IMG/VR virus record: IMGVR_UViG_3300021197_001279
Coordinates: 22,005-86,004 of that record
DNA length: 64,000 nucleotides
DNA from: a virus
Reading direction: 5' to 3' (one strand)
Part shown: positions 23,482 to 59,381 of the stretch, piece after piece
Layout: each line of letters opens with the position of its first letter
Position numbering within the stretch: the stretch's first letter is position 1
Position numbers and translations under genes: made by a program
Notes under the pieces: generated by a model
Database searches by the model: none
What the model saw: only the letters and a program-made list of their open reading frames with translations
What the model was told of the DNA's origin: nothing

Positions 23482-26400
23482 TTAGATTTGGACGTGTGCG
23501 TATCCGTCTTTCTTCTGTATGTCAATTGTCATATCAACAACGTCTTTGAGAGTTTCGAGGTGTGAAATCAACAGAACCGTCTTAAATTGTGACTTAATCA
23601 TTTGAAGAAGTCTGATAAAACCGTCCATGTGTTCTGCATCCAATGCCGTTGCCGGTTCGTCAAGAATAAACAATTCCGATTTTGGAAGATTGGTTATCGA
23701 GATTAGACCTAAGCGAATAGCCATCGAAGCAATTGTCTTTTCTGCTCCGGAACCCATCGATAAAGGTCGAGGATCGTATTTTGGATGTTTAATGTAGATT
23801 TCAAGTTTGCTGCCAACGTTATCAAAGAATACTTCAAAGTCAACAATACTGTTTAGAATCTTTGCAATCTCTGAGTTGATGACTGATAGCATTGACCTGA
23901 TAACTCTATAAGAAACCCCATTGGGATGCATTGCCTGGATGAAAAGATCGTATGCAATGTAATCTCTCTCATAAGTTTGAATCTCTGCTAGTTTTGCTTC
24001 TGCCTCCTTTATTTGTTGTCGGGTTGCCCCTTCTTCAGATACAAGACCCATTGTCTTCTTTTCGCACCGAGTGAGATCACGAGTCTTGTTTTCAATCATT
24101 GCCCTGACAGATCTAACGTCTCTTTTTAGAGAATCAATGTTATCAAATGCTTCTTGGTTTTCATAGTAGTGATCTTTCTTCTTTCTTAGTTCTCTAATCT
24201 CTGACTTAACGAGTTGCTTTGTTGCTTGCCACATTTGAATTTGAGTTGTGATCTTTTGGATCTTGGCCTCAAAGTCTGACTTTTGCTCTTCAAAGCTGAC
24301 AAGTTGTTCGCGTTGCTGCGTTATGGTATCAAAGTCAAGTGCTTCCATTTCGGACTCTAAGAATGCAATCTCATCTTGTAGATTACTAATTTGCGCTTCA
24401 ATAGCTGGGGCATCTGCCTTTGCTTTGTTAGCATCCTTAACAAACTTGTTGTCAGAACAAAATCTACAATTAGGATCGTATTCGTGATCATGCAGCATAG
24501 CAATCTTTTTATTTAGATTACGCAACTTGGTTTCTTTTGGCCTAAGATCGAGTGTCATCTGTTCATGTTCGTACAGTAATTCTTTATGCTTTTGAACTAA
24601 AACATCCAATCTAGATAATTCTTCTGGGTCAATCTTGGATACTACATCTTCAAGTTTTGTTTGAAACTCAGTACGAGAGATTCCCATTAATTTAATTTTA
24701 CCAACAAGATTAGATTTCTCTCTTGTCTTTTCCTCCAGGTCAGTTTCAATCTGAGTTATGTCAATCCACCCATCTTCTACGGAACGAAGCTGGTCTTCGA
24801 TGAGGTCCGATTCTTCTTCCAGTTCCTTTATTCTTGCTTTAAGTTTCTCGCATAAACCAGACTGTTGCGCTATCTCTTCTAAAATTTCTTCTAGCGCCTC
24901 TTGTCCATGAACCAGTTTCTTATGCCAATCAATGGTACTAAGGTGTTTAATAATACCCTTAAGTTCCGCAGAGTCTTTCTTGGCGAGTTTATGTTTCTCT
25001 TCAAACATCTGTAGATCAAGGAATTTAGCCAGAATCTCTTTACGCTTTGTAGACCCCTCGTTAATGAAGCCTAGAGAATCAAGTTGGGAGGACATAGAGG
25101 TGATCATGAAATCTTCAAAGGTACCAAATGCTCTTCTGATGTTCAGGTCTGTCTCATTACGAGTTGTGCCATTCTTGCTTTCTGCCATCGTTCCAAGAGC
25201 ATACTTGGTAAAGTCTAGGTCTGTTTTTGCTTCTTTTGTTACAGTACCTTTGCTCTTCTTCTCATAGGATTCAAGGGAGCGAGTGATTTTGAATGTGTCG
25301 TTCCCTACCCCTATTTCAAGCTGTACCCTGGCCCTGTCTTTGTTCTGGTTAATAAGGTGGACATTCTTCCTTTCAGTCTTTGAAGTTGTATTGAACATCC
25401 CAAAAAGAACAGAGTCAATGATACTTGACTTTCCAGAGTAGTTCTTTCCAAAGATACCTACAAGCCCGTTGAGTTTAGTGAAATCAAGTTCATTTTTCTC
25501 TCCATAGTTAAACAAGTTGTTCCACTTCATCTTTCGAAGCTTCCAAATAATGTTTCTGGAGATATCTTCACTTGTTTCAATTTGCTTGTTATAGTTGGAG
25601 TTTAATTCAATAATCCTATCCAAAACATCATCAGTGATTTCTTTATCACCCAAGAATTCTTTAATGTACTTCTCTTGTGTATTTGGGTCTCGCATGTTGA
25701 TAATCTTGCTGTCTGGATTATCTCCATCCAAGCCCAGACCAGAATAGCCTGCCTTGTTGACGAAATTGACCGTATAGGCACTCCATTTGGTTCGGGCATA
25801 GTCACAGGCCCTACGCAACTTTGCTAGCGGTAGATTGTAATGTGAGACCAATCTGAGCCTAGCGTTCCTTGGGACATCAGCCTTTGGTAAAGTACCATCT
25901 TGATTAATCTGAACTGTTACAAATGGTCGTGGCGACATAAACAGTCTTGGTTCAACTTTAAACTTCTTTTTGCCTCGAATGTCCCATAGCAAATAACCTT
26001 TGAGGAGAGATTCTCCAAAGTTCTGTTGTACTGTTGATCCGGCGTACCAAATACGACCTTCTTCATCAAGCTTTTGTTTTCTGTGGATATCTCCGAGCAT
26101 AGCATAATCAAACTCATCAAAAATGTTGATTGAATCTTCACCGCTTTCTAGAGTGAACCCGTCCGAGATCTTGCAGCCACGAATCGCTCCATGATAAAGG
26201 GCAATGTTAATCCTAGACTTGCTGCTCGGAGCCATCCAGTTATCTCGGTCAAATACCGAAAGAACATTAAGGGTTATCTTTTTTCCCAATCTTGTTTCCC
26301 CAGAATTCTTCAAAAGGTGTAAGTTGGGGTGCCCAAGGGTTTCTATAATTGGCGTTATTGCATCCTGTCTATTATCGTTCTTTAGGTTACCATCGTGGTT

Positions 26401-26637
26401 ACCAAGAATAAGATAAGTTGGTGCAATGTCAGCCAAGTTTTTAAGAAAGTCAGAGCATAGTTCAAAATACTCTGGGGATAGTTGCGTTTTAGTATGGGCA
26501 ATGTCTCCAGTGTGAATGATGTAATCTGGTTGTTCTCTTTCAAGAGATTCGTAAATCTGTTTGAAAACTATTTTGTATTCTTCTTGATACTTTACATTTC
26601 GAATGTGCGTATCACTAATGTGAGCAAATCTAGTCAT
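23482..26637 (-). CDS. Single-chain Mre11-Rad50 (SbcD-SbcC, gp47-gp46) fusion
   Basis: A 1051-aa protein that joins two subunits normally made from separate genes. Residues 1-about 350 are an Mre11/SbcD nuclease: D9-T-H11, G44-D45, G79-N-H-D82, Y148-H149 and GDIH (182-185). Residues about 370-1051 are a Rad50/SbcC ATPase: Walker A GKNYSGKS (397-404), a long coiled coil broken by a zinc hook CRFC (near 722), signature 'LSMGSGAEK' (near 957) and Walker B 'LFILDEPATALD' (near 993). The complex resects DNA ends for recombination-dependent replication in T4-like phages. AGGAGG lies before the ATG and a terminator follows. The order equals T4 47-46. No stop or frameshift interrupts the frame. Confidence 0.93.
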   Translation of the reverse strand: MTRFAHISDTHIRNVKYQEEYKIVFKQIYESLEREQPDYIIHTGDIAHTKTQLSPEYFELCSDFLKNLADIAPTYLILGNHDGNLKNDNRQDAITPIIETLGHPNLHLLKNSGETRLGKKITLNVLSVFDRDNWMAPSSKSRINIALYHGAIRGCKISDGFTLESGEDSINIFDEFDYAMLGDIHRKQKLDEEGRIWYAGSTVQQNFGESLLKGYLLWDIRGKKKFKVEPRLFMSPRPFVTVQINQDGTLPKADVPRNARLRLVSHYNLPLAKLRRACDYARTKWSAYTVNFVNKAGYSGLGLDGDNPDSKIINMRDPNTQEKYIKEFLGDKEITDDVLDRIIELNSNYNKQIETSEDISRNIIWKLRKMKWNNLFNYGEKNELDFTKLNGLVGIFGKNYSGKSSIIDSVLFGMFNTTSKTERKNVHLINQNKDRARVQLEIGVGNDTFKITRSLESYEKKSKGTVTKEAKTDLDFTKYALGTMAESKNGTTRNETDLNIRRAFGTFEDFMITSMSSQLDSLGFINEGSTKRKEILAKFLDLQMFEEKHKLAKKDSAELKGIIKHLSTIDWHKKLVHGQEALEEILEEIAQQSGLCEKLKARIKELEEESDLIEDQLRSVEDGWIDITQIETDLEEKTREKSNLVGKIKLMGISRTEFQTKLEDVVSKIDPEELSRLDVLVQKHKELLYEHEQMTLDLRPKETKLRNLNKKIAMLHDHEYDPNCRFCSDNKFVKDANKAKADAPAIEAQISNLQDEIAFLESEMEALDFDTITQQREQLVSFEEQKSDFEAKIQKITTQIQMWQATKQLVKSEIRELRKKKDHYYENQEAFDNIDSLKRDVRSVRAMIENKTRDLTRCEKKTMGLVSEEGATRQQIKEAEAKLAEIQTYERDYIAYDLFIQAMHPNGVSYRVIRSMLSVINSEIAKILNSIVDFEVFFDNVGSKLEIYIKHPKYDPRPLSMGSGAEKTIASMAIRLGLISITNLPKSELFILDEPATALDAEHMDGFIRLLQMIKSQFKTVLLISHLETLKDVVDMTIDIQKKDGYAHVQI

Positions 26638-27495: not shown

Positions 27496-27523
27496 AATGT
27501 AACATGTTCACAAAATTTGTCAA
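27496..27523 (-). promoter_or_regulatory. Sigma-70-type promoter before tRNA-Leu
   Basis: TTGACA (27518-27523), 16-nt spacer, TACATT (27496-27501) with a TGT extension before the -10. The predicted start falls at the tRNA 5' end. The -35 overlaps the primase stop. Confidence 0.5.
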
Positions 27524-28458
27524 ATACTATTGAGCATTTTTTCTAAAAAATACATTTCATTATCTATCGGTACTGATAACTTTAATTTGTCTCGAAATGT
27601 TTCTGGACTCATTGAGCCGATGTCCTCGTAATCATCAATTGGAACCTTATGAATTTCAACATCGTATTGAAGCATCGACATAATAATCCACTTTGCTTTC
27701 TTTTCAGCATCCGGGTCTAAGGCAAGATACACAGGAGTATCATGAGCAGCGATTGCTTGAAACAGTAATGACTCAGGTCGCAGTGTTGAACCAAGAATAG
27801 GGATGGAATTCTCACCAGCAACAATAGCATCAAATGCACCTTCAACAAGAACCAGTGGCTCATCCCAATCAACGCTCAATTCATTAAAGATAATATCTCT
27901 GCCACAAGGCGGATTAAGATACCTACGGTTATGCCCAACATAAGAGCGAGCGATAAAATAGTTAACGTCCCCATCTGAATTAAACGATGGGATAATGACC
28001 CTTCCGCTGTATCTTCCTTTCTCACAGTATCCGATTTTCCATTTAAGGATCTCATTTCTTTCTATACCTCGATTACGTAAATAGTCTAAAGCACGTTTTG
28101 AACCCAAAGGTAGGTGCTTATTGCATAAAGAGACAAACTCAGGAGGAAGATCAATCACTTGCCTTTCTATAACATCGTTCATTTCGTTTAAGATTTTATC
28201 AAACTCAGACAGGTCCATTCGACCAATCAGTTCTAGATACTGTTGTCGTTGCTTGTAATTGCCAAACTTGCGGACAAGACGATAGATGTTCTTGCCACGC
28301 TGATCACATACCCAGCACTTGAAAGCGTTCAGTGAAAAGTTAACTGACATCTTTTTCTTGTGATGACCACAGTATGGACAGTGAAAGAGAAATTCATCAT
28401 TGGATCTTCTATAAGACCCTAGAACTTCTGTTAAAATTTTAAGTTTGTTGTGTTGCAT
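27520..28458 (-). CDS. DNA primase (gp61/DnaG-type)
   Basis: A 312-aa primase. The N-terminal zinc ribbon has C27-P-Y-C30 and C48-W-V-C51 ('HCPYCGHHKKK', 'FKCWVCDQRG'). The Toprim catalytic part follows: 'VLVEGAFDAI' with the acidic residue near 206, and 'VYLALDPDAEKKA' near 248. This is the organisation of T4 gp61 and related phage primases, which make RNA primers for lagging-strand synthesis with the replicative helicase; the helicase gene is not seen in this window. RBS GAGGGG. The gene has its own sigma-70-like promoter at 28475-28503 and ends at the tRNA promoter. Confidence 0.9.
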   Translation of the reverse strand: MQHNKLKILTEVLGSYRRSNDEFLFHCPYCGHHKKKMSVNFSLNAFKCWVCDQRGKNIYRLVRKFGNYKQRQQYLELIGRMDLSEFDKILNEMNDVIERQVIDLPPEFVSLCNKHLPLGSKRALDYLRNRGIERNEILKWKIGYCEKGRYSGRVIIPSFNSDGDVNYFIARSYVGHNRRYLNPPCGRDIIFNELSVDWDEPLVLVEGAFDAIVAGENSIPILGSTLRPESLLFQAIAAHDTPVYLALDPDAEKKAKWIIMSMLQYDVEIHKVPIDDYEDIGSMSPETFRDKLKLSVPIDNEMYFLEKMLNSI

Positions 28459-28513: not shown

Positions 28514-29017
28514 TTAAATTCCTGAGAGGGCAACAATAACAGAGTCAGCCATGTCGTCTGTTCCGGGTCTTGGGTTACCGTGTCGTGTTAGTTCTACAAC
28601 AAAATCATTAGGGTATTCGTTAGCAACCCATTCAATGATCATTTTCTTGGTATCGTCTCCACGCTTGATCTTAAGTCCAACTTTCTTTCTGGCTGATGAT
28701 GCGTTGACAAGTTCGGCTTCCATCTCAAAAACAATTGGTACCAAGATAGAAATCATACCATTAAATCGTTGAAGCTTGCTCATGGTCATGGCAGTTGTCT
28801 TCCCGCCAGAGAAAGCCATGAAAGGTGCTTCAATTACAACTTTATTTATATTATAATTATTATTTATATTATTTAATATATCATAAAACTCTAATGCTCT
28901 TGTCTCTAAAGAAACAGAGGATTTAAATTTTTTAAATTGACACATAAGAAGTTTTTTGTCTTGATCAATTATTGAGTAGCCGATCTTACTGCTACTTACA
29001 TCTAAACCTAAAATCAT
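28514..29017 (-). CDS. RuvC-like Holliday junction resolvase
   Basis: A 167-aa protein of the RNase H-like RuvC type. Acidic catalytic residues are visible as D6 ('GLDVSSSKIGYS'), E63 ('VVIEAPFM') and D155/D158 ('GTDDMADSVIVAL'). Such phage enzymes cut branched DNA before packaging, the job done by gp49 in T4. The middle contains an Asn/Ile run (NNINNNYNIN) with very AT-rich codons. It is coupled by an ATGA overlap to the 59-aa gene and lies second in the early operon, with primase next. Confidence 0.82.
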   Translation of the reverse strand: MILGLDVSSSKIGYSIIDQDKKLLMCQFKKFKSSVSLETRALEFYDILNNINNNYNINKVVIEAPFMAFSGGKTTAMTMSKLQRFNGMISILVPIVFEMEAELVNASSARKKVGLKIKRGDDTKKMIIEWVANEYPNDFVVELTRHGNPRPGTDDMADSVIVALSGI

Positions 29018-42595: not shown

Positions 42596-45500
42596 TTATT
42601 CTCCAAATAATGCTGATGATGATGGGAACACGATTGCTTCTGTGAATCCTACTGATGAACTTACAATGCCGTTTCGTGGTGCGTAACCGTAAATCTTCTG
42701 ATCTTCTCGCCAATTTGCAGATCCGCTAACAGAATTGTTGATCCAACTGTATTGAAAATCAGATGCAGGAACCAGTGAAGTAATTAGGGCCGTATTATGG
42801 AATTGAGCCTCGACTTCCGCATCGTAAACATCATAAAAACCCTCTGCTATGTCAAAGTCAGTGGTTCCAGTATTCGCGGCTGTGGTAAGGGTGGCGCTGG
42901 TGCTTAGGGAACCTTGAGTTGCTTTAAAGGCAAAACCCTCTGGTACAGCATCGTTAATTTTGTCTCTTTTTGTGTAATCAGTCTCTCCGAGAGGGAAAAA
43001 CTGAGTCAAAGAACCCATCCCACTAGTTGTACCATCTGTGTCTGCGAAGATCTTGGCGGTATCGAGAGCAGTTGCATCAGTTCTTTCGAACACCATGAAA
43101 TTTGAGATAGCGCCGTTAAAAAGTACGTCGGCAAAGTCTAGCCCCATCATGTTGAATTCCGTGGTGTTGGAATTGTATGCCGACGGAGAGCCGCTGTCTG
43201 TAGGTCCGGATGCCTTTGACAATTTTACGTTATTAATTCTAACCTCTGGGTCTGATCCGAATGTTTTAAAGTCAATAATGTAATTGTTCCAATTTGTGTG
43301 TACATGGCCACCAGGTATTGTGTACACAAAAGACCTATGGTTTCCGGCATCTTGATAGATTATCAATCCAACCTCGGTGCTGGATAGAATCTGCACAATA
43401 ATCTTATTCTGCTCGGACATCAAGTATCTATTCGCAGGACTAGCATCATCAAGCTTGACCCACAAAGAAATAGCAGGGGATCTTGTAAAGTCAACACCGA
43501 AATTGGATAATAATGTAGGTTTAACTTCATCCCCTCGATGGACTGCTCTCGCTTTTCTGTCCTGTTGTTCAACCCTCACCATTGTATTTCTGTGTTGTTT
43601 GTGAAATGCTGGCTGTGTGACATAGGTTGCACTTACAACTGATCCAAATGTTGGGTCTGCTCCAAATTTGCCTGAATGAGTGTTAAGGAGTGTTCTAAGC
43701 CCTCGCCTCTCATTAAGTTGATCATTGACTCTTGTCTCGGTAGGCTCACCAGAACCAGAACCTCTTACGGTTAAATTGCGGAAGTTGATTGAGTTATAGA
43801 CTGACTTCTCGCCTGTTGCGATGTCAAGATAACCGCGAGTGTTAACTTGAGGCCCACCAGGAGCAGAGAATCTAGTTGTAATGATGTTCTTTGAGCCTGT
43901 GATGGTCTCTTCTGGTACCTGAAAATCTGTTGACTTATCAGTATAAGAAAGAACCTGTGTGGTCTCTGGGAATGCCGATAGTTCTGCTGGTAAAGCAAAC
44001 CCTGCTGACTTGACAAAATGGCGTTTATTGTTCCCAAATGAATTTAGGAATTCGTATGAATGAAAGTAGTTTCCAACATTTGCAGAGGCTGTTGTTGTCT
44101 GAATGTTCTTTACATTAATCGGTCTCTTGGCTTTTTCTTCTCGGAAATAAATGGCATGTTGTCTTGTAATGTTGGGATAAGGCCCACCATAATCAGGGCC
44201 AACAAATCCAACAGCGCCGTCACGATTTGACACAGTACTATGTTCACCGATAAGAAGTCGCCATGCCTCTGGTCTTGAATACTGATCGTCAAGATTGTTA
44301 ACGGTTGCGCCACCACCCTCAGTAACGAGAGTTGTATCGCGCCTGTTTAAATCAACGTGTCTTGCTTGGTTTCCACCTACCCATTGGTTTGTAAATGGAC
44401 CCTGCATAGGAACTTCATTTGTGATGTCAATAGTATCAGCGTGTATGTTTGTAAAAACTACATTGTTTCTAAATTCATCATCAACTCTTTTGTTGTAACC
44501 GGTTGTTATCGACCCAGAAACAATATTAAACGGCCAGTAGTGTTCTGATTTCAACTTGAACTCAGCATCTGCAAGTGGAGACAACGGAGCGGTACCTTGC
44601 TCATCGGATGATCGTCCAACGATACATTCCGCGTTGAATTTGTAAAGTAAATTTGGATTCAAAACATCATCACACTTTTGCTTTTCTTGAATGCCCTGTC
44701 CGGTACCAAGACCAATACCAAAAACATTCTTTGGCGCACCTGATGCGAACTCTCCACCATGAGGAGTTGTTACCTCACGAACAAAGTTGCGGTTCTTCTG
44801 GAGGGAGTAATTTGTCCCTCCATGAATTGAGTTGTTAAAGCCAATAGAAATAGCGTAGGGGCGAGACAGTTTTCTTCTGGCATAAGTTGAACCTTGGTAA
44901 ATTGTCTTGTCTGGTTGGGCTAAATTGGAACTTGTTTGATTAGTCTGGTTAACTAAAACCTGTCGGATAATCTCACGATCAGCAATGTCTGATCTTTCTT
45001 CCCTCTCTTTCATCCACAGGCAGTTTACATTCTCTCTATTTTGAACAAACTGTCCTTGATCAAACACATCGTTGGTGAGAGATACGCTACTGTTCGGGTT
45101 TATAACAAAATTCTGCCCAGACACTACATCTTGAATAAGGGCATTTGTGTCTCCTGGTGTATCGCCCATTCTCCAGTGGGCAACAACAGAGTTGTTGTCA
45201 GAAAATGCATCAGAAGTAGGGTCAAAATATTTCCCACTATTATAAAGTTCAGAAATCTGAGAGTTTGTTAGTGACCCAGTGAAGAAAGTTATTTCATCAA
45301 ATTCAGTGTCATAGCTACTGTTTGATGCTAATTCTACCCTATCAACAGCACCCTCGATTAAAAAAGCACTAGTATTAGTGTTATCCGAGCCAGGACTGCT
45401 AACAACTGCCTCTGTACCGTTAATGAAAAGTTTTAAATTAGATGTTGGGTCTCCGCTTGAAGCCGTATGAATAATACTTGACACACTGTCTTCTACCTTG

Positions 45501-48500
45501 AAAAGTAGATGTGCCCATGTATCATCTGTGACTGTGGTTCCAGTAAATGTTGCCAGGTTTTGCCCACCTGCTGGGGCAGCGGAACCTGTGGCCTTAATTC
45601 TAACTCTCCAGGCACCAGCAGCTTGTCTATAGTCAATCCTAAATACTTCACTAGATGCTTTCCTGAGGGTTATTTGCCCAGAAGTTGAGGTATCACAGTC
45701 TGCTTTTGTCCAGAATGCCAAGCAAAATTTGTCAGCACCTGTTGATAGGTTTGCTGTTGCTTTATCGTTAGCATCTTGAGCCATTAACAAGGATGTGGTG
45801 TTTTGATATGCATAGGTCTCATAGTTTGGAGCGTGACCAAACTGCCAGTTGTATGTTAATTCGTTAATCCCTCTAATAGAGCCTTCTGTGCTGTCGTGCC
45901 TATCAAGCAGACCGATTCTGTTCTGAAGCTTGTTTCTCTCTAGAATGTGAGACTCTACAACATTTGATGCTGCCTCGCCGAACCTAACAGATGCAGGATA
46001 CAATTGAGATATCATAGCAGAAACAGAAGAGTCTATCCACTTATAATAATTGGTAAATGTTTCAAAGTCAATGTCTGCTGTTACCCTGTTAAAAAACAAT
46101 TCTCTGGCTTTGTCTAGGCGTTTGTAATTTTGCCTATATCTATCTTCTGGCCTTCCAATTAAATTGGCAAACTCTTGAATTGTAGAAAATGTCTCAAGCA
46201 TCTTCTCAGATACAATTGCATTCATGCTCTTTTCTAGGAGATAAAAGTTATCAGATACATCATCATCTTTAATAAAGTTTATCTCTCTATCGCCCTTGAT
46301 AAAAACGTTATCATTGGTATACGAGATTTCAGGTAATTCTTTCTTAAGTGCAAATACAAATCTATTATCAACAAAGGCAGTTTTTGATGCGCCGAAACTC
46401 CTTCCTCTACCCTTGTGTTCTCTTCGAATAATCGTATCTGGCCAGCCGTAAATTGTATCGATAGAACCAGAGGTTATATCATCAACTACAAAATCACCAG
46501 AGGCATCGGAACCGGTTACTGTATCGAAATCCCAGTTTAATATTTTGAGATCCTGGCTTGGGATGTGCTTGTTGGCTATCGTAAACATGTTGGATGTTTG
46601 GAAAGATTCTTGGTTCCCAAAATTACTAGCATCTTTGTTATGTGATTTAATTGCCTCGTTTGGAAGAAAATCTAGCCATGCTCGACATCCACCGACCATA
46701 ATATCAGACTGTTGTTGAGCAGATCCAGTAAAGTTTTCTAATTCAGCACCAACGTAAATTCTTTTTGGGTTTGTTAAGAATGCTGACCCTGAAGCATTAT
46801 TAATTGATGCTGTAAGGCTGATCTCGTAAATTAACTCATCTAAATTGTGATTTACGGCATAGAAATCAACTGTGTAATTTGGAGTTGTATTTGTTACATT
46901 ACCAGCGTAAGGGTATGTGTCTGGTTTTACCCGAACTGCTAAATTCCAGTGGGTATTATCATAAATGTTTTCAATGTAACTTGAGGTCAAATTGATAGAG
47001 CCGTCACGGCTTTTCATTTGAAACTTTGCTCTTTTTGACTCTAGTTCATCTCTCACGAGAAATACCTGAATAGATGCGGTCTCGGGAGTTACCCAGGTGT
47101 AGTCCTCGTGATCATCCGCTGCTTCATGGAAACCGAATAATGAAGATGTTGTGAAAGGAGTATAGAAAAATCCGTTATCCTGCTCTTCTTTTTTGTGAGG
47201 AACAATCATGTCCAATTCTACGGAGAACGCATTGTTCTTCTCGTTACCTGTTGCTCTAGAGCCGGTGATAAAGGTGTTAGTGTTTAGCGTTGAGCCGGTT
47301 TGATAAATCGTAGATGAAAAGTTGTCTAATGAATTAAAATTAATGTAATTTTTGCGTATTGATGTACTTTTTGATTTGTCCGTAAAATAATGTGTTCCCT
47401 GATCAGTATAAACATTAAGCTTAAGCAACTCATCATCAACACCAAAGCATCTAATCAAATTGCGGATTGATCTCTCGGTCCCTTTTGATTTATAGATTCC
47501 TTCAAGGTTATTGTATATATTTGTGTAGATTAGATTCTTGATCTCGTCAACATTCTTGTTAAACTTATTTGTGTTTTCATCGTATGATGTCAATGTTTCA
47601 AAAACATCAGAACTAACAAAAATATCACGGGTCATGAACCCTTTGTCATCAAGTACATTTTTCATGAAAGGGATTGCTTTAAAATTACCATCATTACTTT
47701 GTTGAACGTATTCTTTTGCTTTTAGGTTTGGCAGCGCTGTTATTTGAGCGTGTAGGGTGTCAAAGTAACTGGCTATGATTTGATTTAGATATTTGAGGTT
47801 TTCGTTATCATCCTCATCTTTCATCCATTGCGGCATAGAGTTGTAAATTGACCCACCGTATTCTTCATCGTAATTTGACCCCGAGGTTTCCATTTCAGAG
47901 ATTAAAGAAACAACATCAGGATGGGTAGAGTAAATGATTGGATCAGAGATCTCTGTCGTTGCAAAAGCTGAGCCTGTGTTTCTACCTTGTGTCCCGTCAG
48001 CACCATACCCTGTCCATGCACCATTTGCAATTCGACCCGAGTAATCTAAAATAATAGAGTCTGTTGCTGATGTTCCGGTTATACCCTCATTGAACTTAAA
48101 ATAAAGACCCAAGTCTTTTGTGGCATCATCTGTGTTTGCTCCTCCACCAACATTCTTAAAGTAGTTTAGGCCGACCTCTCTACCTGTCCTTTGAGTTTTC
48201 CAGAACCTAAACTCATCTAGAGAACCTGATAACTTACCATCACCTGATACTTCTGTTCCAGTTCCGTTAGAGGACGATGGAGCGGTAAGCAGCGCACCAA
48301 TTCGACCTTTGACTAATCCACCAATTTCAGAGACAGCTGCTCCGTGGTCTGTTGTTGTTGTCAAAGCACCATTTGTATAGAGGCGACTTTTAATAGATGT
48401 CACTGATTCGTTGAGAACAGTCACAGCGTAGTGATTAAAAGAACTCAAAGCTAGACTTGTACCAATAGTAGTTTGGAAGAAACCATTGGTTCCATTCTGA

Positions 48501-49195
48501 ATTGTTAAAATTAAGTCACTGTCGCTACCGCCGTTATCATCAAGTTCTAGAGTTAATCTACCATAATTAGCCGAACTTGAAATCTCACTGTTCCAAAGGT
48601 CAATAACTACTTCTTTGTCTGAGTTTGAGGCAAATGCTGTTTTTTGGAGATAGAACTCAAATGTTACACCAACATCAAAGTCTAAATTAAATGTTTTCTC
48701 TCGATTTTTTGTAGCATCATACTTAGAGTTTAAATCAAACGCTTTTGATAGGGGGTCCGTCGCTGTGAAGTCCGATGAAATGTGAAGACCACCGGCTATG
48801 TCAATAAATTCTTGATCTTTGTATCCGGACCCGTAACCTCTTGCAGTTTTACTAGTAGCCCCTGCTGATAGTCCGTGAATAATATACCCAGTCGTCTTGG
48901 GGTACTTTTTCTCAAACATCCATCGATCAAGGTAGGATGAAGATAGATGAAATTCTAATTTTTCTTTTTCTGAGCCATCGTAAGGATAATCATCATAGAT
49001 TCTCTCAATAGACTTGGAATAGTAAACCTCGGCCAAACCATACTTAACAAAATTTGAAGCACTGCCAAAATCAATCGGCGGAAGAAAGGTCTCCCTCTCT
49101 TTCGCAACGTTATCGGCAAACTTAGTTGATTCTACATCAGCGCTGCTGCTTTCATAACTTTTTATTGATTTCGAAAATAAATTTTTAATACTCAT
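42596..49195 (-). CDS. Giant tail protein with about four LamG-like domains
   Basis: A 2199-aa protein. Residues about 165-430, 635-840, 1145-1350 and 1915-2090 look like concanavalin/LamG sandwiches, with recurring 'SLxxWV', 'HYAVTVLN', 'FRFWKTQRTGREVGLNYF', 'WAHLLFKVEDS', 'DEITFFTGSLTNSQISELYNSG' and 'FMVFERTDATALD' patterns and 'LGLYFKFNEG' or 'VVAHWRMGD' terminal strands. Helical, aromatic-rich regions lie between (for example 880-1130). Such domains often bind sugars, so this is a likely host-surface or baseplate adhesin. It overlaps the upstream gene by 11 nt. A single protein of this size in the baseplate run is unusual. Confidence 0.68.
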   Translation of the reverse strand: MSIKNLFSKSIKSYESSSADVESTKFADNVAKERETFLPPIDFGSASNFVKYGLAEVYYSKSIERIYDDYPYDGSEKEKLEFHLSSSYLDRWMFEKKYPKTTGYIIHGLSAGATSKTARGYGSGYKDQEFIDIAGGLHISSDFTATDPLSKAFDLNSKYDATKNREKTFNLDFDVGVTFEFYLQKTAFASNSDKEVVIDLWNSEISSSANYGRLTLELDDNGGSDSDLILTIQNGTNGFFQTTIGTSLALSSFNHYAVTVLNESVTSIKSRLYTNGALTTTTDHGAAVSEIGGLVKGRIGALLTAPSSSNGTGTEVSGDGKLSGSLDEFRFWKTQRTGREVGLNYFKNVGGGANTDDATKDLGLYFKFNEGITGTSATDSIILDYSGRIANGAWTGYGADGTQGRNTGSAFATTEISDPIIYSTHPDVVSLISEMETSGSNYDEEYGGSIYNSMPQWMKDEDDNENLKYLNQIIASYFDTLHAQITALPNLKAKEYVQQSNDGNFKAIPFMKNVLDDKGFMTRDIFVSSDVFETLTSYDENTNKFNKNVDEIKNLIYTNIYNNLEGIYKSKGTERSIRNLIRCFGVDDELLKLNVYTDQGTHYFTDKSKSTSIRKNYINFNSLDNFSSTIYQTGSTLNTNTFITGSRATGNEKNNAFSVELDMIVPHKKEEQDNGFFYTPFTTSSLFGFHEAADDHEDYTWVTPETASIQVFLVRDELESKRAKFQMKSRDGSINLTSSYIENIYDNTHWNLAVRVKPDTYPYAGNVTNTTPNYTVDFYAVNHNLDELIYEISLTASINNASGSAFLTNPKRIYVGAELENFTGSAQQQSDIMVGGCRAWLDFLPNEAIKSHNKDASNFGNQESFQTSNMFTIANKHIPSQDLKILNWDFDTVTGSDASGDFVVDDITSGSIDTIYGWPDTIIRREHKGRGRSFGASKTAFVDNRFVFALKKELPEISYTNDNVFIKGDREINFIKDDDVSDNFYLLEKSMNAIVSEKMLETFSTIQEFANLIGRPEDRYRQNYKRLDKARELFFNRVTADIDFETFTNYYKWIDSSVSAMISQLYPASVRFGEAASNVVESHILERNKLQNRIGLLDRHDSTEGSIRGINELTYNWQFGHAPNYETYAYQNTTSLLMAQDANDKATANLSTGADKFCLAFWTKADCDTSTSGQITLRKASSEVFRIDYRQAAGAWRVRIKATGSAAPAGGQNLATFTGTTVTDDTWAHLLFKVEDSVSSIIHTASSGDPTSNLKLFINGTEAVVSSPGSDNTNTSAFLIEGAVDRVELASNSSYDTEFDEITFFTGSLTNSQISELYNSGKYFDPTSDAFSDNNSVVAHWRMGDTPGDTNALIQDVVSGQNFVINPNSSVSLTNDVFDQGQFVQNRENVNCLWMKEREERSDIADREIIRQVLVNQTNQTSSNLAQPDKTIYQGSTYARRKLSRPYAISIGFNNSIHGGTNYSLQKNRNFVREVTTPHGGEFASGAPKNVFGIGLGTGQGIQEKQKCDDVLNPNLLYKFNAECIVGRSSDEQGTAPLSPLADAEFKLKSEHYWPFNIVSGSITTGYNKRVDDEFRNNVVFTNIHADTIDITNEVPMQGPFTNQWVGGNQARHVDLNRRDTTLVTEGGGATVNNLDDQYSRPEAWRLLIGEHSTVSNRDGAVGFVGPDYGGPYPNITRQHAIYFREEKAKRPINVKNIQTTTASANVGNYFHSYEFLNSFGNNKRHFVKSAGFALPAELSAFPETTQVLSYTDKSTDFQVPEETITGSKNIITTRFSAPGGPQVNTRGYLDIATGEKSVYNSINFRNLTVRGSGSGEPTETRVNDQLNERRGLRTLLNTHSGKFGADPTFGSVVSATYVTQPAFHKQHRNTMVRVEQQDRKARAVHRGDEVKPTLLSNFGVDFTRSPAISLWVKLDDASPANRYLMSEQNKIIVQILSSTEVGLIIYQDAGNHRSFVYTIPGGHVHTNWNNYIIDFKTFGSDPEVRINNVKLSKASGPTDSGSPSAYNSNTTEFNMMGLDFADVLFNGAISNFMVFERTDATALDTAKIFADTDGTTSGMGSLTQFFPLGETDYTKRDKINDAVPEGFAFKATQGSLSTSATLTTAANTGTTDFDIAEGFYDVYDAEVEAQFHNTALITSLVPASDFQYSWINNSVSGSANWREDQKIYGYAPRNGIVSSSVGFTEAIVFPSSSALFGE

Positions 49196-52889: not shown

Positions 52890-55800
52890 TTAATCCTTGT
52901 CAAATAAACTCTGGAATGCGTTTTTGCAATCTTTACCATCCGCATCAAATGGTTTCTCACTAACAATTCTTCTACGTTGCCACCAAGAAATACTACTATC
53001 CAAATTTAAATACAGTTGAGGTGCAATATTTTCTAAAAATTTACGAGAAGAATCTCTAGATCGTTCTTGACTATCTTGCGGATCGTCGTCATCTGATCGG
53101 TAAACTGAGTTAAACAATTTCCTAGCGATGTCCTTTGAGTCATTGAAAACAAAGCCTTTCCATAAGTCAGCGCCTAAACCAAGTCCCAATAGACCGGCAT
53201 CGTTCTTTTCGCTTGGGTCTCTACCAATTGATTCAAAAAATCCATAGTAAGAATAGATACCAAACACAGACACATAAGATTTAAGAGGGAAACAGTAGTC
53301 AATAAGAACTTGATACTCTTCTGTCTGCACAAGCTTGTCTATGTAGCACTTGAGTTCTTCTCCCATGTTCTCGTCTTCATAATTTATCTCTTTTATCTTC
53401 TTGTCGAAAACATCCTGCTCAAAAGATGCAATAGGTATTGTTCGAGAAGTAAGTGCCCAAGGTCGTGGTTCTTCTTCTCCCTCTATCAGGATTGAAGCAG
53501 GTTTGTGAAAAAATGCTCGGTTTGTCTCTGCGTTTAAATCTGTCAGGTCATAAGAGAAAGCAGATGGAGGGCAATACATTAATCTCACGCCAAATTGAAC
53601 CCCTAATGAACCAACAAGTATCCTATCATCGCTGATTAAATCTAGGTTGCCAAAATAATCTGAAAGCTTTAAACTCTCGTCATAAACAGCCCTGTCGCTA
53701 AGTAACTCTTGGAATTCTCTAATGTTATATACCTGCTCGGCACCATCTTTATCAGTAGCCCTCACATATCTCTCTAGGTAAAATACACCTTTTTTATTTA
53801 AGTCTTGGAACTCCTCTGATGTCATCTCGAGATTGTCAAATACATTCTCTTCTAAAACGTTCCTTGGAACATCAAAAATTGAGCCATACTCAAGCCCAGA
53901 GGCACCACCAGCCACAGGAGCCTCAATTCTGCTCTCTCCCGCTCTTAAAGTTGAACCCCTTACGATACCATTCCTTGACAGCAGATACTTGTTTATGTCG
54001 TACACATGAGGTCGTGGGCGCATGTTGAAGTTAAGCTTGTTGGACAAGATAGTCATTTCTGTCTTTACAATTTCTCGCAAGAATATTTTGGCGGCATCTC
54101 GTGCTTTCCAAATGGTATTTATCTTATTTGCTAATCCAAGTCGGAACGGAGTAAGGGCTATCACTCCGAGACCTGTCCAGATACCAGCCACAGCAGTTAA
54201 ACTAAGCTTGAGCGGGTTATTAGCCTCTTCTTGCCAGTTTTCTCCGTAAGCGATGATTGCAGATCCTGTCGCTATGTCGTTAGCAGCTTGTTCGAAATCC
54301 TGAGTTACAGACTTAAATTCAGACTTGAATCTATCTATTTCCTCTTTGGCCTCTCTAAGTGCAGGGGTCATTTCGATCATACCATCCAACACCATTCTTT
54401 CAACTGCCTGAACTGCTTGCTCTAAAAACAACAACCAATAAGTATAACCCTGTATCACATTGAACAACTTTGTTTGGTCCACGAGACCTTCTTGCATCTC
54501 ATTTACCAAAACATCAACAAACATATCCTCAATGTTTCTATCGGTCATTTCAATACTACCAAATGCTGGAAGGGTTTTGAGAATAAATTCAGTAACGTAA
54601 ACCCGCACAGTAGAAATTACAACACCGTCCATTAAGCCATGGTTGATTGGACTAAACTGTCTATCGAATGGCAACTCAACGCGACACTCAGGGGACAACT
54701 CTAGGCGCTTATCAAAGGGCAGGTTGTCCTCAATCTGCTTTACTCGGTTTGTGACCTGGGCAAGGTCCAAGAAATTAGTCGTGTCCTCATCGCAGCTTGA
54801 AATTTCTGGGATAAATGTTCTAACCAAACCGAGCCAACCATTGTATGTTGCAGGTTCGATGTAAATCTTTGGCCTCTTAAATGAGCCACCATGCAAAGCA
54901 GGGTCCAGAAAATGAACTCGTGGATTCTCTGTGGCGCTTTTACCTAACTTCCTATCTTCTTCCTCAAAAGTATATTCCCAGGTACCAGGATTGTCTGGGT
55001 TTGCATCCGGATTTACATAAATCAGGTCTTTAAACTCAATCTTTTGATCTATGTCATAACCAAATTTGTATCCTACAGGAAGGTTTCCTTCCGGATCATT
55101 TAGAACTGAACTCTTTACAAATTCAAAGATTTCTTGATTAATCGCCTCGTAAACATTTTCGCTCTCTACGTTATCGATTTCTACGGGCCTGTCGAGGGCA
55201 CGTTTTAGTAAATTTTCAAAAACTTGAACGTATGCCTTAGGTTGGTCCGCTAAGGGGAACTCTATGCCCTCTAAAAAGGATTCATCATGGGTAAATGGCT
55301 TAAAGTACACCAAATCGTCTTTATCAACAACAGGTGCGTTACTAAACAGATCCCCTAAGTCTTGATCTGGCCTGAAAGAAAGAAATGTCTCTGTCGTATT
55401 CACATTAAACTGGTTGCCTAATCTGCCTCTTCTCGAGATAATCATTCTAAGTGTGTAATCAGCATCTTCATCACCAGCAGCATTTGTAAAGGAAGAGTCG
55501 ATAACCATACGACCGTCATCTGCTAATTTCGGTGCAGGGACGTTACTTTCCATTTGTTTTCTCAAATGTATACCAACCGTATCGGGGAATTGACCCTTTG
55601 CTTTATCAGGTTCTGACATAATAAAGTCGTTAGCATAAAGAATAGAGCCATTTTCTTTCCGGAACTGCCAGTCCTCGTCTGAGTTAACATAATTCGGGAA
55701 CAAAATAGGAGTATTAGCGAACAATTCGTGTAACTTAAGTGAGTTATCAGCAGTGTCTCGCAATATACTTACCAAGACAGAAGTGAAGTCGCCAATTAAA

Positions 55801-58800
55801 TCGCCATAGAATCCCTTTTCCAAGGTGCTAAAGAAATCATTTATCAGTCCTTTCTTTTGTTGGCGACTCTCTGGTGTCTCAAGAGTAAGTGCGCTTTTAT
55901 TTACAGAACATGTTGGGTCAGCACGGGACATCAGATCATCAATTGCTTGATCCATTAGGCCTTGTGGGCCTTCTTGCATAATCTTCGCAATGTCCCCTAG
56001 ATCATCAAGAACCCTGTCGTTTGCCTTATTGATTAGGTCACGGGCAGTCTCTTCGTCCAAGCCATTATCTGTCAGTAGGCGCTCACGATCTCTGTTCCAT
56101 TGGTCTAACTCGTCCTGGCTTAAACAGATTGAGTCATAGATAGGGCCATCAGGAACTGTGTTTACCTGGTCGATTAATTCTGCCATCAGTTCTGGTGGAC
56201 ACAGAGAACCCGCCTGTTGATAGAATTGCTCAACATCTTCGGGTCTTCCCATTACACCACTATAGTCTGGGCAGAAAGTGTTCACAGCAGCTGCGATTCT
56301 TGCTGATGCATTAGGGCTTCCTTGTCCTGCTAATAGTTGGACGTTTTCTTTCCTAGATGACACAGAGTTGATTGTTCGATACAGGCAACCAATGTCACCG
56401 CCGAAGCCACCAACACCGCCAAAAATACCATCCTTAGTGGCAGCAAGATCATTGTCGTCGCCATCAGGGCAAAAGGCGTCTTTAAATGCCTGATCTAGGC
56501 CATTACCTCCACCACTCAATTCATCAGCAACAAACGCACCAAGCGCATTAATTGAATCACACAGGGCAGAATCAACTGTCTCTAACAACTTGAACAGCAT
56601 ACTAACCATCACTTTTGCCATGGTTTGGCTAAACTTTTGTATGAAGATGTTTGATAAAGTAGTGAGCAAAGAACTATCAAAAAAGTTAGGTACCTTAGGT
56701 ATCTCTGGCATTGTCAGGCCATTCCTAAGATCACCGCAAACATCAAGAGTTAGGGTGCTTAAAAAGCTGTCAAAAGAAGGGTCTGCTGGTGATTGCGAAG
56801 CACACTGGACAGAGGCTATTAATCTTGGCAGCAATTCACTTACAAGAGGAACCCTATCAAGAGTCTGTAGCAATACATCGATCTGTAGGGAGTCCATCAT
56901 GTAGTCAATGTAAGCCGCTGTAATTGTCTTTTGAAGAGACCCAAGTGCATTACCATAAGTACCCGGAGGAGTGTTCTCTGGTGCGTTTGCTTCTCTATTT
57001 GCGGCATCAGACAACATTTCCTTTTCGGCAGCCGGTAGTGCTCTCCACAAAGCAAGTTCTGCACTTCCTGTTTCCAAATCTTTAATCTCTGCCTCAATTG
57101 CTTTGATGTTCTCAAGTTCATTATTTTTAGAAGTCAAGAGAGATTGATAGTCTTGGTTTATGGCGTTTATTCTACCTTGGATGGTATCAACTCGTATTGA
57201 TAATCCCAACTCTTCTGCTTCTACTTGTTCTTTCTCGAGTTTTAGTATTTCTTCAGTGAAAAAGTTAAATTCATTATCGTAGCCATTAATCTCTTCTATA
57301 ATTTCTTGAATCTCGGCTCTTTTTTCTTCTATTAGCTTCTCTACGCTAGCGCCTCCTATCATTTGTGATAGACTGCCATCTTTGTATTTCTGATAAGGGT
57401 TTGAATTTGACATTGAGCCAGGGTCATAACCTGCTTCCCATGGTAATGGTAAATTGCCAAAGTCTCTTTCATACTGCTGACGGATCTTAATTTGGTCCGC
57501 AGGTGGAAGGTTTTCAATGAAAAATCCAAGTACATCAATGTTCATGGACTCAAGCGCAACTCGAACAAGCTTGTCCATAGCATCATCATAGGTGGTGCCT
57601 GACATTAAACAGCGAACAGCACTCATTCCGATGGTCTTAACATTGCAGAGACTCAATACACTTAGGGCATAATTGCTTTGAGAGCCTTGAGGTGAGTCTT
57701 TTAAATTCTGTAACACTGTGCTGTTTGAATTTTTACTGTATGACTTCAAAGTATCTGGTGGTATCAGAGACTTTAGAAGCGTGTCTTGTGCAAAAAACTT
57801 ATCAAACTGTGTCTGGTACGCTACTTCATTGACTTTATCCGCAGTATCAAAAAAGCTTAAGGGCTTTGGCTTATCGCCTGGTCTTGAACAAGAGACATTG
57901 TTGAATTCGTATTCTAATGCCTTCATTAAATCAACGGAATCATTTAAGATAGTGTCTCGCAACTCAACAGCATAATCAATTGCATTGTTGGCAATGCAAC
58001 TTCCAAAATTTTGCTCAACACTCTCGTTACTAAGTTTTCCATAGATAACGGAAAGTTGTGGATAGGTGTATGCTACAAGAAAATCAAGCCACGGATAAGA
58101 CTGTGATGCACGTAAGGACATGTCGATCTTCTTTAGATTTGCGACATAATGCATTGTAGTTGGGTGTTCATCACACCACTCCTTGAAAGCATCAAAGCCG
58201 TTAGTTAATTTACGATATCCACAACCATCAACCTCTACCTTAATTGCCTTAAGTTTGTAAATTTCTCCATCTTTAAACTCTAGCTTGACTTTTCTAACAA
58301 GATTTCCAAAGCCGCTAAGGAGACTGCTAAGTTTATACCCATTAGCCTCAATGATTTGCTGGATTTTATCTTTAAACTGGTCTATTTTTGATTTCTGAAC
58401 CGATGCATAGTAATCAACCTTCTGCGTGTCCTCAGCGCTAAGAGGTTCCACGTCTTGAGTGTCAGAAAAAATTAGATAACCATCTTGGTTGCGCCAGAAG
58501 AGCGATTGGTATGCAGCATAAATACCAAGTGTTGTTGAAAGCCTTGTCAATTGAGGCCCAAGGTCCTCGGACAAAAACTCAACAAAATCAATAGAACGTA
58601 ATTCCGAAACAGTATCGGTAGCGCCGCTTAATTCAATGCTGGGCTTGTTTGGGACTTGATCAAAAACAAAAGCTGGAACTGTAACCTTAACCTTGAGATA
58701 GTTTTCAAACGGGTCAATGTCAAAATCACTAACCACCGCATACAACTCTAGGGCGTAAGGGTTTGTAATCTCGGGATACTGACCTGTTGCAAACTTGGCT

Positions 58801-59381
58801 GCATCAAACACTTCAAAACTATTACCATCCTCGGTTGTCCTGTTCTCTCCTGCATTAGTTGAGTTGGTTGCATCCACTATCACTCTATCAATAGGCGGAC
58901 ATGAATTTCTCTGTGACAGTGGGGCATCCGATAAATCAACCTCATTGACACCTTCAAGAGTTTTTTGATAAGCTAAACTGTAGTTGTTCTGAAGATCAAG
59001 TAATTCTTCTGTTGCCAGCCCTTCAAGCTTAAGGCCAGGGAACGAAGCGCAAATAATTGCATCAGCCTCAAGCTTACCAAACTCTCGCAACATTAAACGC
59101 AAAGCAGGCTCGATGTATTGCCTCAAAGCGACTTCGCGACCTCTTGGTGGGTTTCTAAACTCTGCACCAGTAAGGTAATCACCATTTCTATCTAAACTAA
59201 CAACGCAAGTGTACTCACAAGTTTTCTCGTTTAGATAAGGTCTGTTAACAGTGTTTCTCCAGTCTGGCTCAATGTAGTCTGGGTTTGTAATACAAGTCGG
59301 GCAAATCTTTTTTATCGGCGGTGGTGCAGGAACATCATCGCAAACATCTTTTTGGAATTTTGAGAAATCTTTTTCGGCCAT
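52890..59381 (-). CDS. Giant baseplate-region structural protein
   Basis: A 2163-aa protein. The N-terminus is Cys/Pro-rich ('PAPPPIKKICPTCITNPD'). A long coiled-coil stretch lies at about 690-770 ('EKLIEEKRAEIQEIIEEING', 'LEKEQVEAEELG', 'INQDYQSLL'). About 1720-1745 is a hydrophobic segment ('LTAVAGIWTGLGVIALTPFRLG') that could insert in a membrane or be a buried helix. Many acidic loops separate helices. It is placed between the hub lysozyme and gp25, where T4 has wedge proteins gp7 and gp8, though it is about twice as long as gp7. It may combine wedge and tape-measure-like features; neither is proved. Confidence 0.6.
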   Translation of the reverse strand: MAEKDFSKFQKDVCDDVPAPPPIKKICPTCITNPDYIEPDWRNTVNRPYLNEKTCEYTCVVSLDRNGDYLTGAEFRNPPRGREVALRQYIEPALRLMLREFGKLEADAIICASFPGLKLEGLATEELLDLQNNYSLAYQKTLEGVNEVDLSDAPLSQRNSCPPIDRVIVDATNSTNAGENRTTEDGNSFEVFDAAKFATGQYPEITNPYALELYAVVSDFDIDPFENYLKVKVTVPAFVFDQVPNKPSIELSGATDTVSELRSIDFVEFLSEDLGPQLTRLSTTLGIYAAYQSLFWRNQDGYLIFSDTQDVEPLSAEDTQKVDYYASVQKSKIDQFKDKIQQIIEANGYKLSSLLSGFGNLVRKVKLEFKDGEIYKLKAIKVEVDGCGYRKLTNGFDAFKEWCDEHPTTMHYVANLKKIDMSLRASQSYPWLDFLVAYTYPQLSVIYGKLSNESVEQNFGSCIANNAIDYAVELRDTILNDSVDLMKALEYEFNNVSCSRPGDKPKPLSFFDTADKVNEVAYQTQFDKFFAQDTLLKSLIPPDTLKSYSKNSNSTVLQNLKDSPQGSQSNYALSVLSLCNVKTIGMSAVRCLMSGTTYDDAMDKLVRVALESMNIDVLGFFIENLPPADQIKIRQQYERDFGNLPLPWEAGYDPGSMSNSNPYQKYKDGSLSQMIGGASVEKLIEEKRAEIQEIIEEINGYDNEFNFFTEEILKLEKEQVEAEELGLSIRVDTIQGRINAINQDYQSLLTSKNNELENIKAIEAEIKDLETGSAELALWRALPAAEKEMLSDAANREANAPENTPPGTYGNALGSLQKTITAAYIDYMMDSLQIDVLLQTLDRVPLVSELLPRLIASVQCASQSPADPSFDSFLSTLTLDVCGDLRNGLTMPEIPKVPNFFDSSLLTTLSNIFIQKFSQTMAKVMVSMLFKLLETVDSALCDSINALGAFVADELSGGGNGLDQAFKDAFCPDGDDNDLAATKDGIFGGVGGFGGDIGCLYRTINSVSSRKENVQLLAGQGSPNASARIAAAVNTFCPDYSGVMGRPEDVEQFYQQAGSLCPPELMAELIDQVNTVPDGPIYDSICLSQDELDQWNRDRERLLTDNGLDEETARDLINKANDRVLDDLGDIAKIMQEGPQGLMDQAIDDLMSRADPTCSVNKSALTLETPESRQQKKGLINDFFSTLEKGFYGDLIGDFTSVLVSILRDTADNSLKLHELFANTPILFPNYVNSDEDWQFRKENGSILYANDFIMSEPDKAKGQFPDTVGIHLRKQMESNVPAPKLADDGRMVIDSSFTNAAGDEDADYTLRMIISRRGRLGNQFNVNTTETFLSFRPDQDLGDLFSNAPVVDKDDLVYFKPFTHDESFLEGIEFPLADQPKAYVQVFENLLKRALDRPVEIDNVESENVYEAINQEIFEFVKSSVLNDPEGNLPVGYKFGYDIDQKIEFKDLIYVNPDANPDNPGTWEYTFEEEDRKLGKSATENPRVHFLDPALHGGSFKRPKIYIEPATYNGWLGLVRTFIPEISSCDEDTTNFLDLAQVTNRVKQIEDNLPFDKRLELSPECRVELPFDRQFSPINHGLMDGVVISTVRVYVTEFILKTLPAFGSIEMTDRNIEDMFVDVLVNEMQEGLVDQTKLFNVIQGYTYWLLFLEQAVQAVERMVLDGMIEMTPALREAKEEIDRFKSEFKSVTQDFEQAANDIATGSAIIAYGENWQEEANNPLKLSLTAVAGIWTGLGVIALTPFRLGLANKINTIWKARDAAKIFLREIVKTEMTILSNKLNFNMRPRPHVYDINKYLLSRNGIVRGSTLRAGESRIEAPVAGGASGLEYGSIFDVPRNVLEENVFDNLEMTSEEFQDLNKKGVFYLERYVRATDKDGAEQVYNIREFQELLSDRAVYDESLKLSDYFGNLDLISDDRILVGSLGVQFGVRLMYCPPSAFSYDLTDLNAETNRAFFHKPASILIEGEEEPRPWALTSRTIPIASFEQDVFDKKIKEINYEDENMGEELKCYIDKLVQTEEYQVLIDYCFPLKSYVSVFGIYSYYGFFESIGRDPSEKNDAGLLGLGLGADLWKGFVFNDSKDIARKLFNSVYRSDDDDPQDSQERSRDSSRKFLENIAPQLYLNLDSSISWWQRRRIVSEKPFDADGKDCKNAFQSLFDKD

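Follow-up and report, generated by a model that had tools for sequence, protein, structure and literature searches.

At 23482-26637 of the window, a single gene genuinely joins the DNA-break nuclease Mre11 and its motor partner Rad50 in one chain. The window is the whole 64,000-nucleotide stretch that was analysed, corresponding to bases 22005-86004 of an 86-kb virus record. The gene is one more member of a known fusion family, common in aquatic phages and giant viruses. In 2011 Yoshida et al. reported such fusions from Mimivirus (R555), Bacillus phage 0305phi8-36, plasmids, bacteria and eukaryotes, and noted that they fall in none of the canonical clades. Inferring that the fusions abound in aquatic viral metagenomes, they made a case for aquatic viruses, possibly phages, as their real home (PMC3175470). 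A sequence-only reading had found the one-frame, 1051-aa chain, now confirmed as open from end to end, and knew of no well-studied phage example; this claim of rarity fails, given a long-known family that includes a phage (PMC3175470) and at least 97 distinct fused frames among the loci collected here.

The fused gene and its setting

Along the chain, the Mre11 nuclease is followed by a capping region, a helix-loop-helix, a short link and a complete Rad50 comprising N-lobe, two coils around a CxxC hook, and C-lobe. The gene lies on the minus strand, no strand having been named earlier. The features discussed here are as follows.

23482..26637, minus strand: single-chain Mre11-Rad50, whole gene (1051 aa plus stop, frame without internal stop)
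25972..26637, minus strand: Mre11/SbcD nuclease domain, residues 1-222 (Pfam; alignment with T4 gp47, E. coli SbcD and other split forms)
26083..26094, minus strand: G182-D183-I184-H185, with Asp at the canonical Mre11 His (P. furiosus His206)
25693..25971, minus strand: capping-like region, residues 223-315 (AlphaFold2 model; PDB matches 3thn, 7dog)
25570..25686, minus strand: helix-loop-helix, residues 318-356 (predicted helices 318-329 and 336-356)
25549..25569, minus strand: link of about 7 residues, 357-363, between Mre11 and Rad50 (model; open in all homologues)
25003..25548, minus strand: Rad50 N-lobe, residues 364-545 (Walker A 397-404 at 25426-25449; Q-loop Q518)
24484..25002, minus strand: ascending coiled coil, residues about 546-718 (model)
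24457..24468, minus strand: zinc hook C724-x-x-C727 (kept in nearly all homologues)
23929..24447, minus strand: descending coiled coil, residues about 731-903 (model)
23485..23928, minus strand: Rad50 C-lobe (signature S963-G-A-E-K967, Walker B D993-E994, D1000, H1026)
27520..28458, minus strand: DNA primase, upstream of the fusion
28514..29017, minus strand: RuvC-like Holliday junction resolvase, same strand as the fusion

The domain reading made from the letters alone was right: Pfam places Metallophos at residues 3-185 (E 3.7e-14) and AAA_23/SMC_N from about residue 367 in one frame. PHROGs assigns residues 323-1046 to the SbcC family phrog_77, and a profile built from 41 homologues hits E. 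coli SbcC and archaeal Rad50 chains as well as S. aureus SbcD and T. maritima Mre11. The nuclease motifs are D9-T-H11, G44-D45...H48, G79-N-H-D82, H149 and G182-D-I-H185, supplying the residues D9/H11, D45/H48, N80/H81, H149 and D183/H185; those of the ATPase include Walker A (397-404), the hook C724-x-x-C727 and Walker B (D993-E994). The motifs listed previously are all present, with two corrections of position: the signature is S963-G-A-E-K967 rather than near 957, and the hook, put near 722, has its cysteines at 724 and 727. One relative (L019) has CKFIC in the hook region instead of CxxC, an unusual spacing.

An AlphaFold2 monomer model (mean pLDDT 82, pTM 0.46) contains nuclease and capping folds, the lobes of Rad50 and a pair of long helical arms that come together at the CxxC hook, with residues 297-310 of the capping-like region poorly predicted. 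As a pTM of 0.46 is low, the placement of the domains, and hence cis versus trans contact, is unreadable from this model. Among the PDB entries that match its fold are structures of Mre11-Rad50 and SbcCD, 3thn and 7dog being nuclease plus capping structures. By analogy with T. maritima Mre11 (PMC3175470), the expected binding site of the helix-loop-helix at 318-356 is the coil root of Rad50.

The neighbours of the fusion are those of a contractile-tailed phage, with genes for terminase, portal, head protease, major head protein, baseplate wedge, sheath and tube. Near the baseplate genes lie two very long minus-strand ORFs, at 42596-49195 (2199 aa) and 52890-59381 (2163 aa). Adjoining the fusion on the same strand is a small replication group of thioredoxin, primase and RuvC-like resolvase, and of 69 loci, among which a few contigs count twice, 65 have a primase homologue upstream of the fusion.

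Mre11 and Rad50 genes are separate neighbours in phages such as T4, Yut3 and 278BB001, and the window frame could on that ground be taken for two genes joined in assembly or sequencing by a missed stop or frameshift, a concern previously raised for residues of about 350-370. The window frame has no stop there, and it is open through the join in 27/27 full-length homologues first checked, comprising 26 IMG/VR contigs and the isolate genome of Mel-JY01; the contigs with the fusion derive from many separate metagenomes. Compared with a 95% identical homologue (L013), the window gene has 13 synonymous changes and 1 non-synonymous change in the 33 codons that span the join (340-372), differences being counted in place of dN/dS since dS is saturated in the link alone. 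The codon differences show purifying selection across the join; in the same comparison, dN/dS comes to 0.015 over Mre11 and 0.058 over Rad50. The open homologues and the codon pattern together rule out a missed stop or frameshift at the join. Independent assemblies share the open frame, so an artefact is refuted for the family and has a vanishingly small probability.

It is also highly improbable that the chain is cut after translation to work as two ordinary subunits, the join being short and fairly conserved, which gives little hint of a dispensable cleavage site. A covalent link had been proposed to fix a 1:1 stoichiometry and possibly to alter how the head opens. Fixing the ratio changes little, the canonical Mre11-Rad50 complex being 2:2 in any case; the fusion ensures co-production, and the subunit ratio is the same as for separate subunits.

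Distribution and origin of the fusions

A first IMG/VR scan gave 39 loci, and a profile scan at least 572 confirmed relatives, of which 80 were kept and some were checked for full-length fusion. Fused homologues with the same domain order, which the sequence-only reading had suggested seeking, are readily found: at least 97 distinct fused frames and several named phages, namely Microcystis phage Mel-JY01, Tenacibaculum phage pT24 and Rhizobium phage RHph_TM2_3B. The fusions of PTm1 and Listeria phage LMTA-57 are known from structure-library entries alone. The LMTA-57 entry (BFVD A0A068CB47) is a 1009-aa fused protein, and in its relative Listeria phage WIL-1 the two genes are separate; the entry represents either a recent fusion or a sequencing error. 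With the RHph_TM2_3B and pT24 fusions as queries, IMG/VR returned no further useful relatives, and tblastn revealed no plasmid relatives of the window fusion.

Among huge phage genomes, LR756501 encodes a fusion of 1202 aa, and the 484-kb LR756508 carries one that is interrupted. In the latter (L046 2944-7169), an ORF of roughly 0.9 kb is inserted in the Mre11 domain just past GDIH; with its repeated CxxC motifs, it may be a homing endonuclease, and no Rfam match to an RNA intron was found in the interrupted gene. The fusion also turns up in assembled bacterial and archaeal genomes, mostly on short MAG contigs that are probably phage sequence caught up in binning. On a WOR-3 MAG chromosome (L132 from 5962, CP070664.1), a fused gene 50% identical to that of the window runs into a run of N, and is probably phage sequence scaffolded into the MAG. 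Two gene halves a few bases apart on IMGVR_UViG_3300030333_003780 (L024 and L033) match the query at 75% and 54%, and this contig is possibly chimeric.

The window protein has the make-up of R555-type fusions, with an N-terminal Mre11-like nuclease and a C-terminal Rad50-like ATPase in one frame, catalytic metallophosphoesterase motifs, and the Walker A, signature and Walker B of Rad50. It resembles giant-virus members over the full chain: the first-ranked BFVD match is from Tupanvirus (E 6.3e-63, 1312 alignment columns), and the viral proteins nearest in fold are single-chain 'DNA repair exonuclease' entries from giant viruses, Tupanvirus and Harvfovirus among them, with that of Tenacibaculum phage pT24 next. 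R555 shares the Mre11-then-Rad50 order, the helix-loop-helix region, the short link and its status as sole copy in the virus, but it is an amoeba-virus protein of 1351 aa with longer coils, against 1051 aa in a contractile-tailed phage. The Mel-JY01 fusion (PP395634, WWT39521.1; 1066 aa) likewise has a primase upstream and aligns over 99% of the query, although identity is just 31% and it is annotated merely as 'AAA domain containing protein'. Those of pT24 (BPT24_019, 1310 aa) and RHph_TM2_3B (EVB95_240, 959 aa) are single chains with GDIH and a CxxC hook, yet are much diverged and lack a homologue of the window primase beside them. T4 gp47/gp46 and bacterial SbcD/SbcC belong to the same two protein families and have the same expected role, but are encoded by two separate genes and carry GHxH at the metal site; the window gene, in one frame, departs from their two-subunit form.

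A tree of nuclease plus head domains was built from 73 rows, of which 19 were fused, phage fusions only. Eighteen of these lie on one side of a branch with an SH-aLRT of 99. The remaining row, RHph_TM2_3B, has a long branch and falls outside the others, its place in the tree being unsure, and a topology that groups all 19 is not rejected by the AU test (p-AU 0.65). This branch and this test therefore make a single origin of the phage fusions likely, short of proof.

Aspartate at the metal site

The modest addition of our analysis, read from aligned sequences, is an Asp at the Mre11 metal-ligand His in every fused protein examined. GDIH in the fused proteins occupies the site mapped to P. furiosus His206 (PMC3175470), canonically GHxH. 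Asp is found there in all of the at least 97 distinct fused frames and His (GHYH, GHFH, GHIH) in 158 distinct split phage frames, counts that are not independent since the frames are related. R555 resembles the window protein in having the same Asp at the His206 site, and in GDxxH, with His for the third Asp of GDxxD (PMC3175470). This His48 is kept in most fused proteins and absent in pT24 and LR756501. Two of the relative scans used a pattern containing GDIH and were biased toward it; GDIH is also present in 26 IMG/VR contigs found without the pattern, and in pT24, RHph_TM2_3B, LR756501, LR756508 and Mel-JY01, all tblastn finds made without it.

Four split loci carry the Asp: L267, L268, L278 and L149, the last being poorly aligned. 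L267, L268 and L278 encode split Mre11 proteins of SPO1-like type that read GDFH or GDYH, and L267 and L278 fall inside the SPO1-like split clade of the tree. The His-to-Asp change has therefore also arisen without fusion. We consider it unlikely that fusion and the change at this second metal ligand are coupled, such that the single-chain viral enzymes would form a distinct class, altered in how they use metal or in how they cut. Decidedly unlikely is a changed nuclease chemistry, in which an altered second metal site would give the fused enzyme a tethering or different cutting role compared with gp46/gp47. The presence of Asp in every examined fused protein, R555 included, speaks for such a change, but Asp can bind metal as well, the remaining catalytic residues are kept and some split forms carry Asp too.

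Predicted role in DNA-end processing

The fusion is very probably the phage's only SbcCD/gp46-gp47 enzyme, predicted to process DNA ends for recombination-dependent replication, in which T4 gp46/gp47 act (PMC3175470). In each of 11 records, three of them of 187-192 kb, the fused frame gives the sole Metallophos match and the sole AAA_23 match, and none of the 11 holds a second, separate SbcC or SbcD. A RecA-type recombinase gene is present in 4 records of 120-192 kb. The sole Metallophos/AAA_23 gene, the primase upstream and the recombinase in larger relatives make a gp46/gp47 role the simplest reading. The intact domains and catalytic motifs of the fusion favour it, as do its viral and PDB fold matches and its primase and RuvC-like neighbours; against it stand the metal-site Asp, which departs from characterised Mre11, the pTM of the model, at which domain placement is unreliable, and the lack of a RecA match in the window's own 86-kb record, which may be a fragment.

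We infer the dimer form, activity and role of the protein as follows. Two fusion chains would most likely pair through their Mre11 nuclease domains and ATP-bound Rad50 heads, with the coils of the paired chains joined at the zinc hook. ATP turnover would open the heads and pass DNA ends to the nuclease, which would trim or nick them so that the phage recombinase could start recombination-dependent replication and repair. The enzyme may also help to degrade host DNA.

Single-chain Mre11-Rad50 is shown here to be common in tailed phages, where the inference of 2011 came from short environmental reads, and cultured phages suited to testing it can now be named. Being compact, a single-chain version could also make structural work on the Mre11-Rad50 complex easier.
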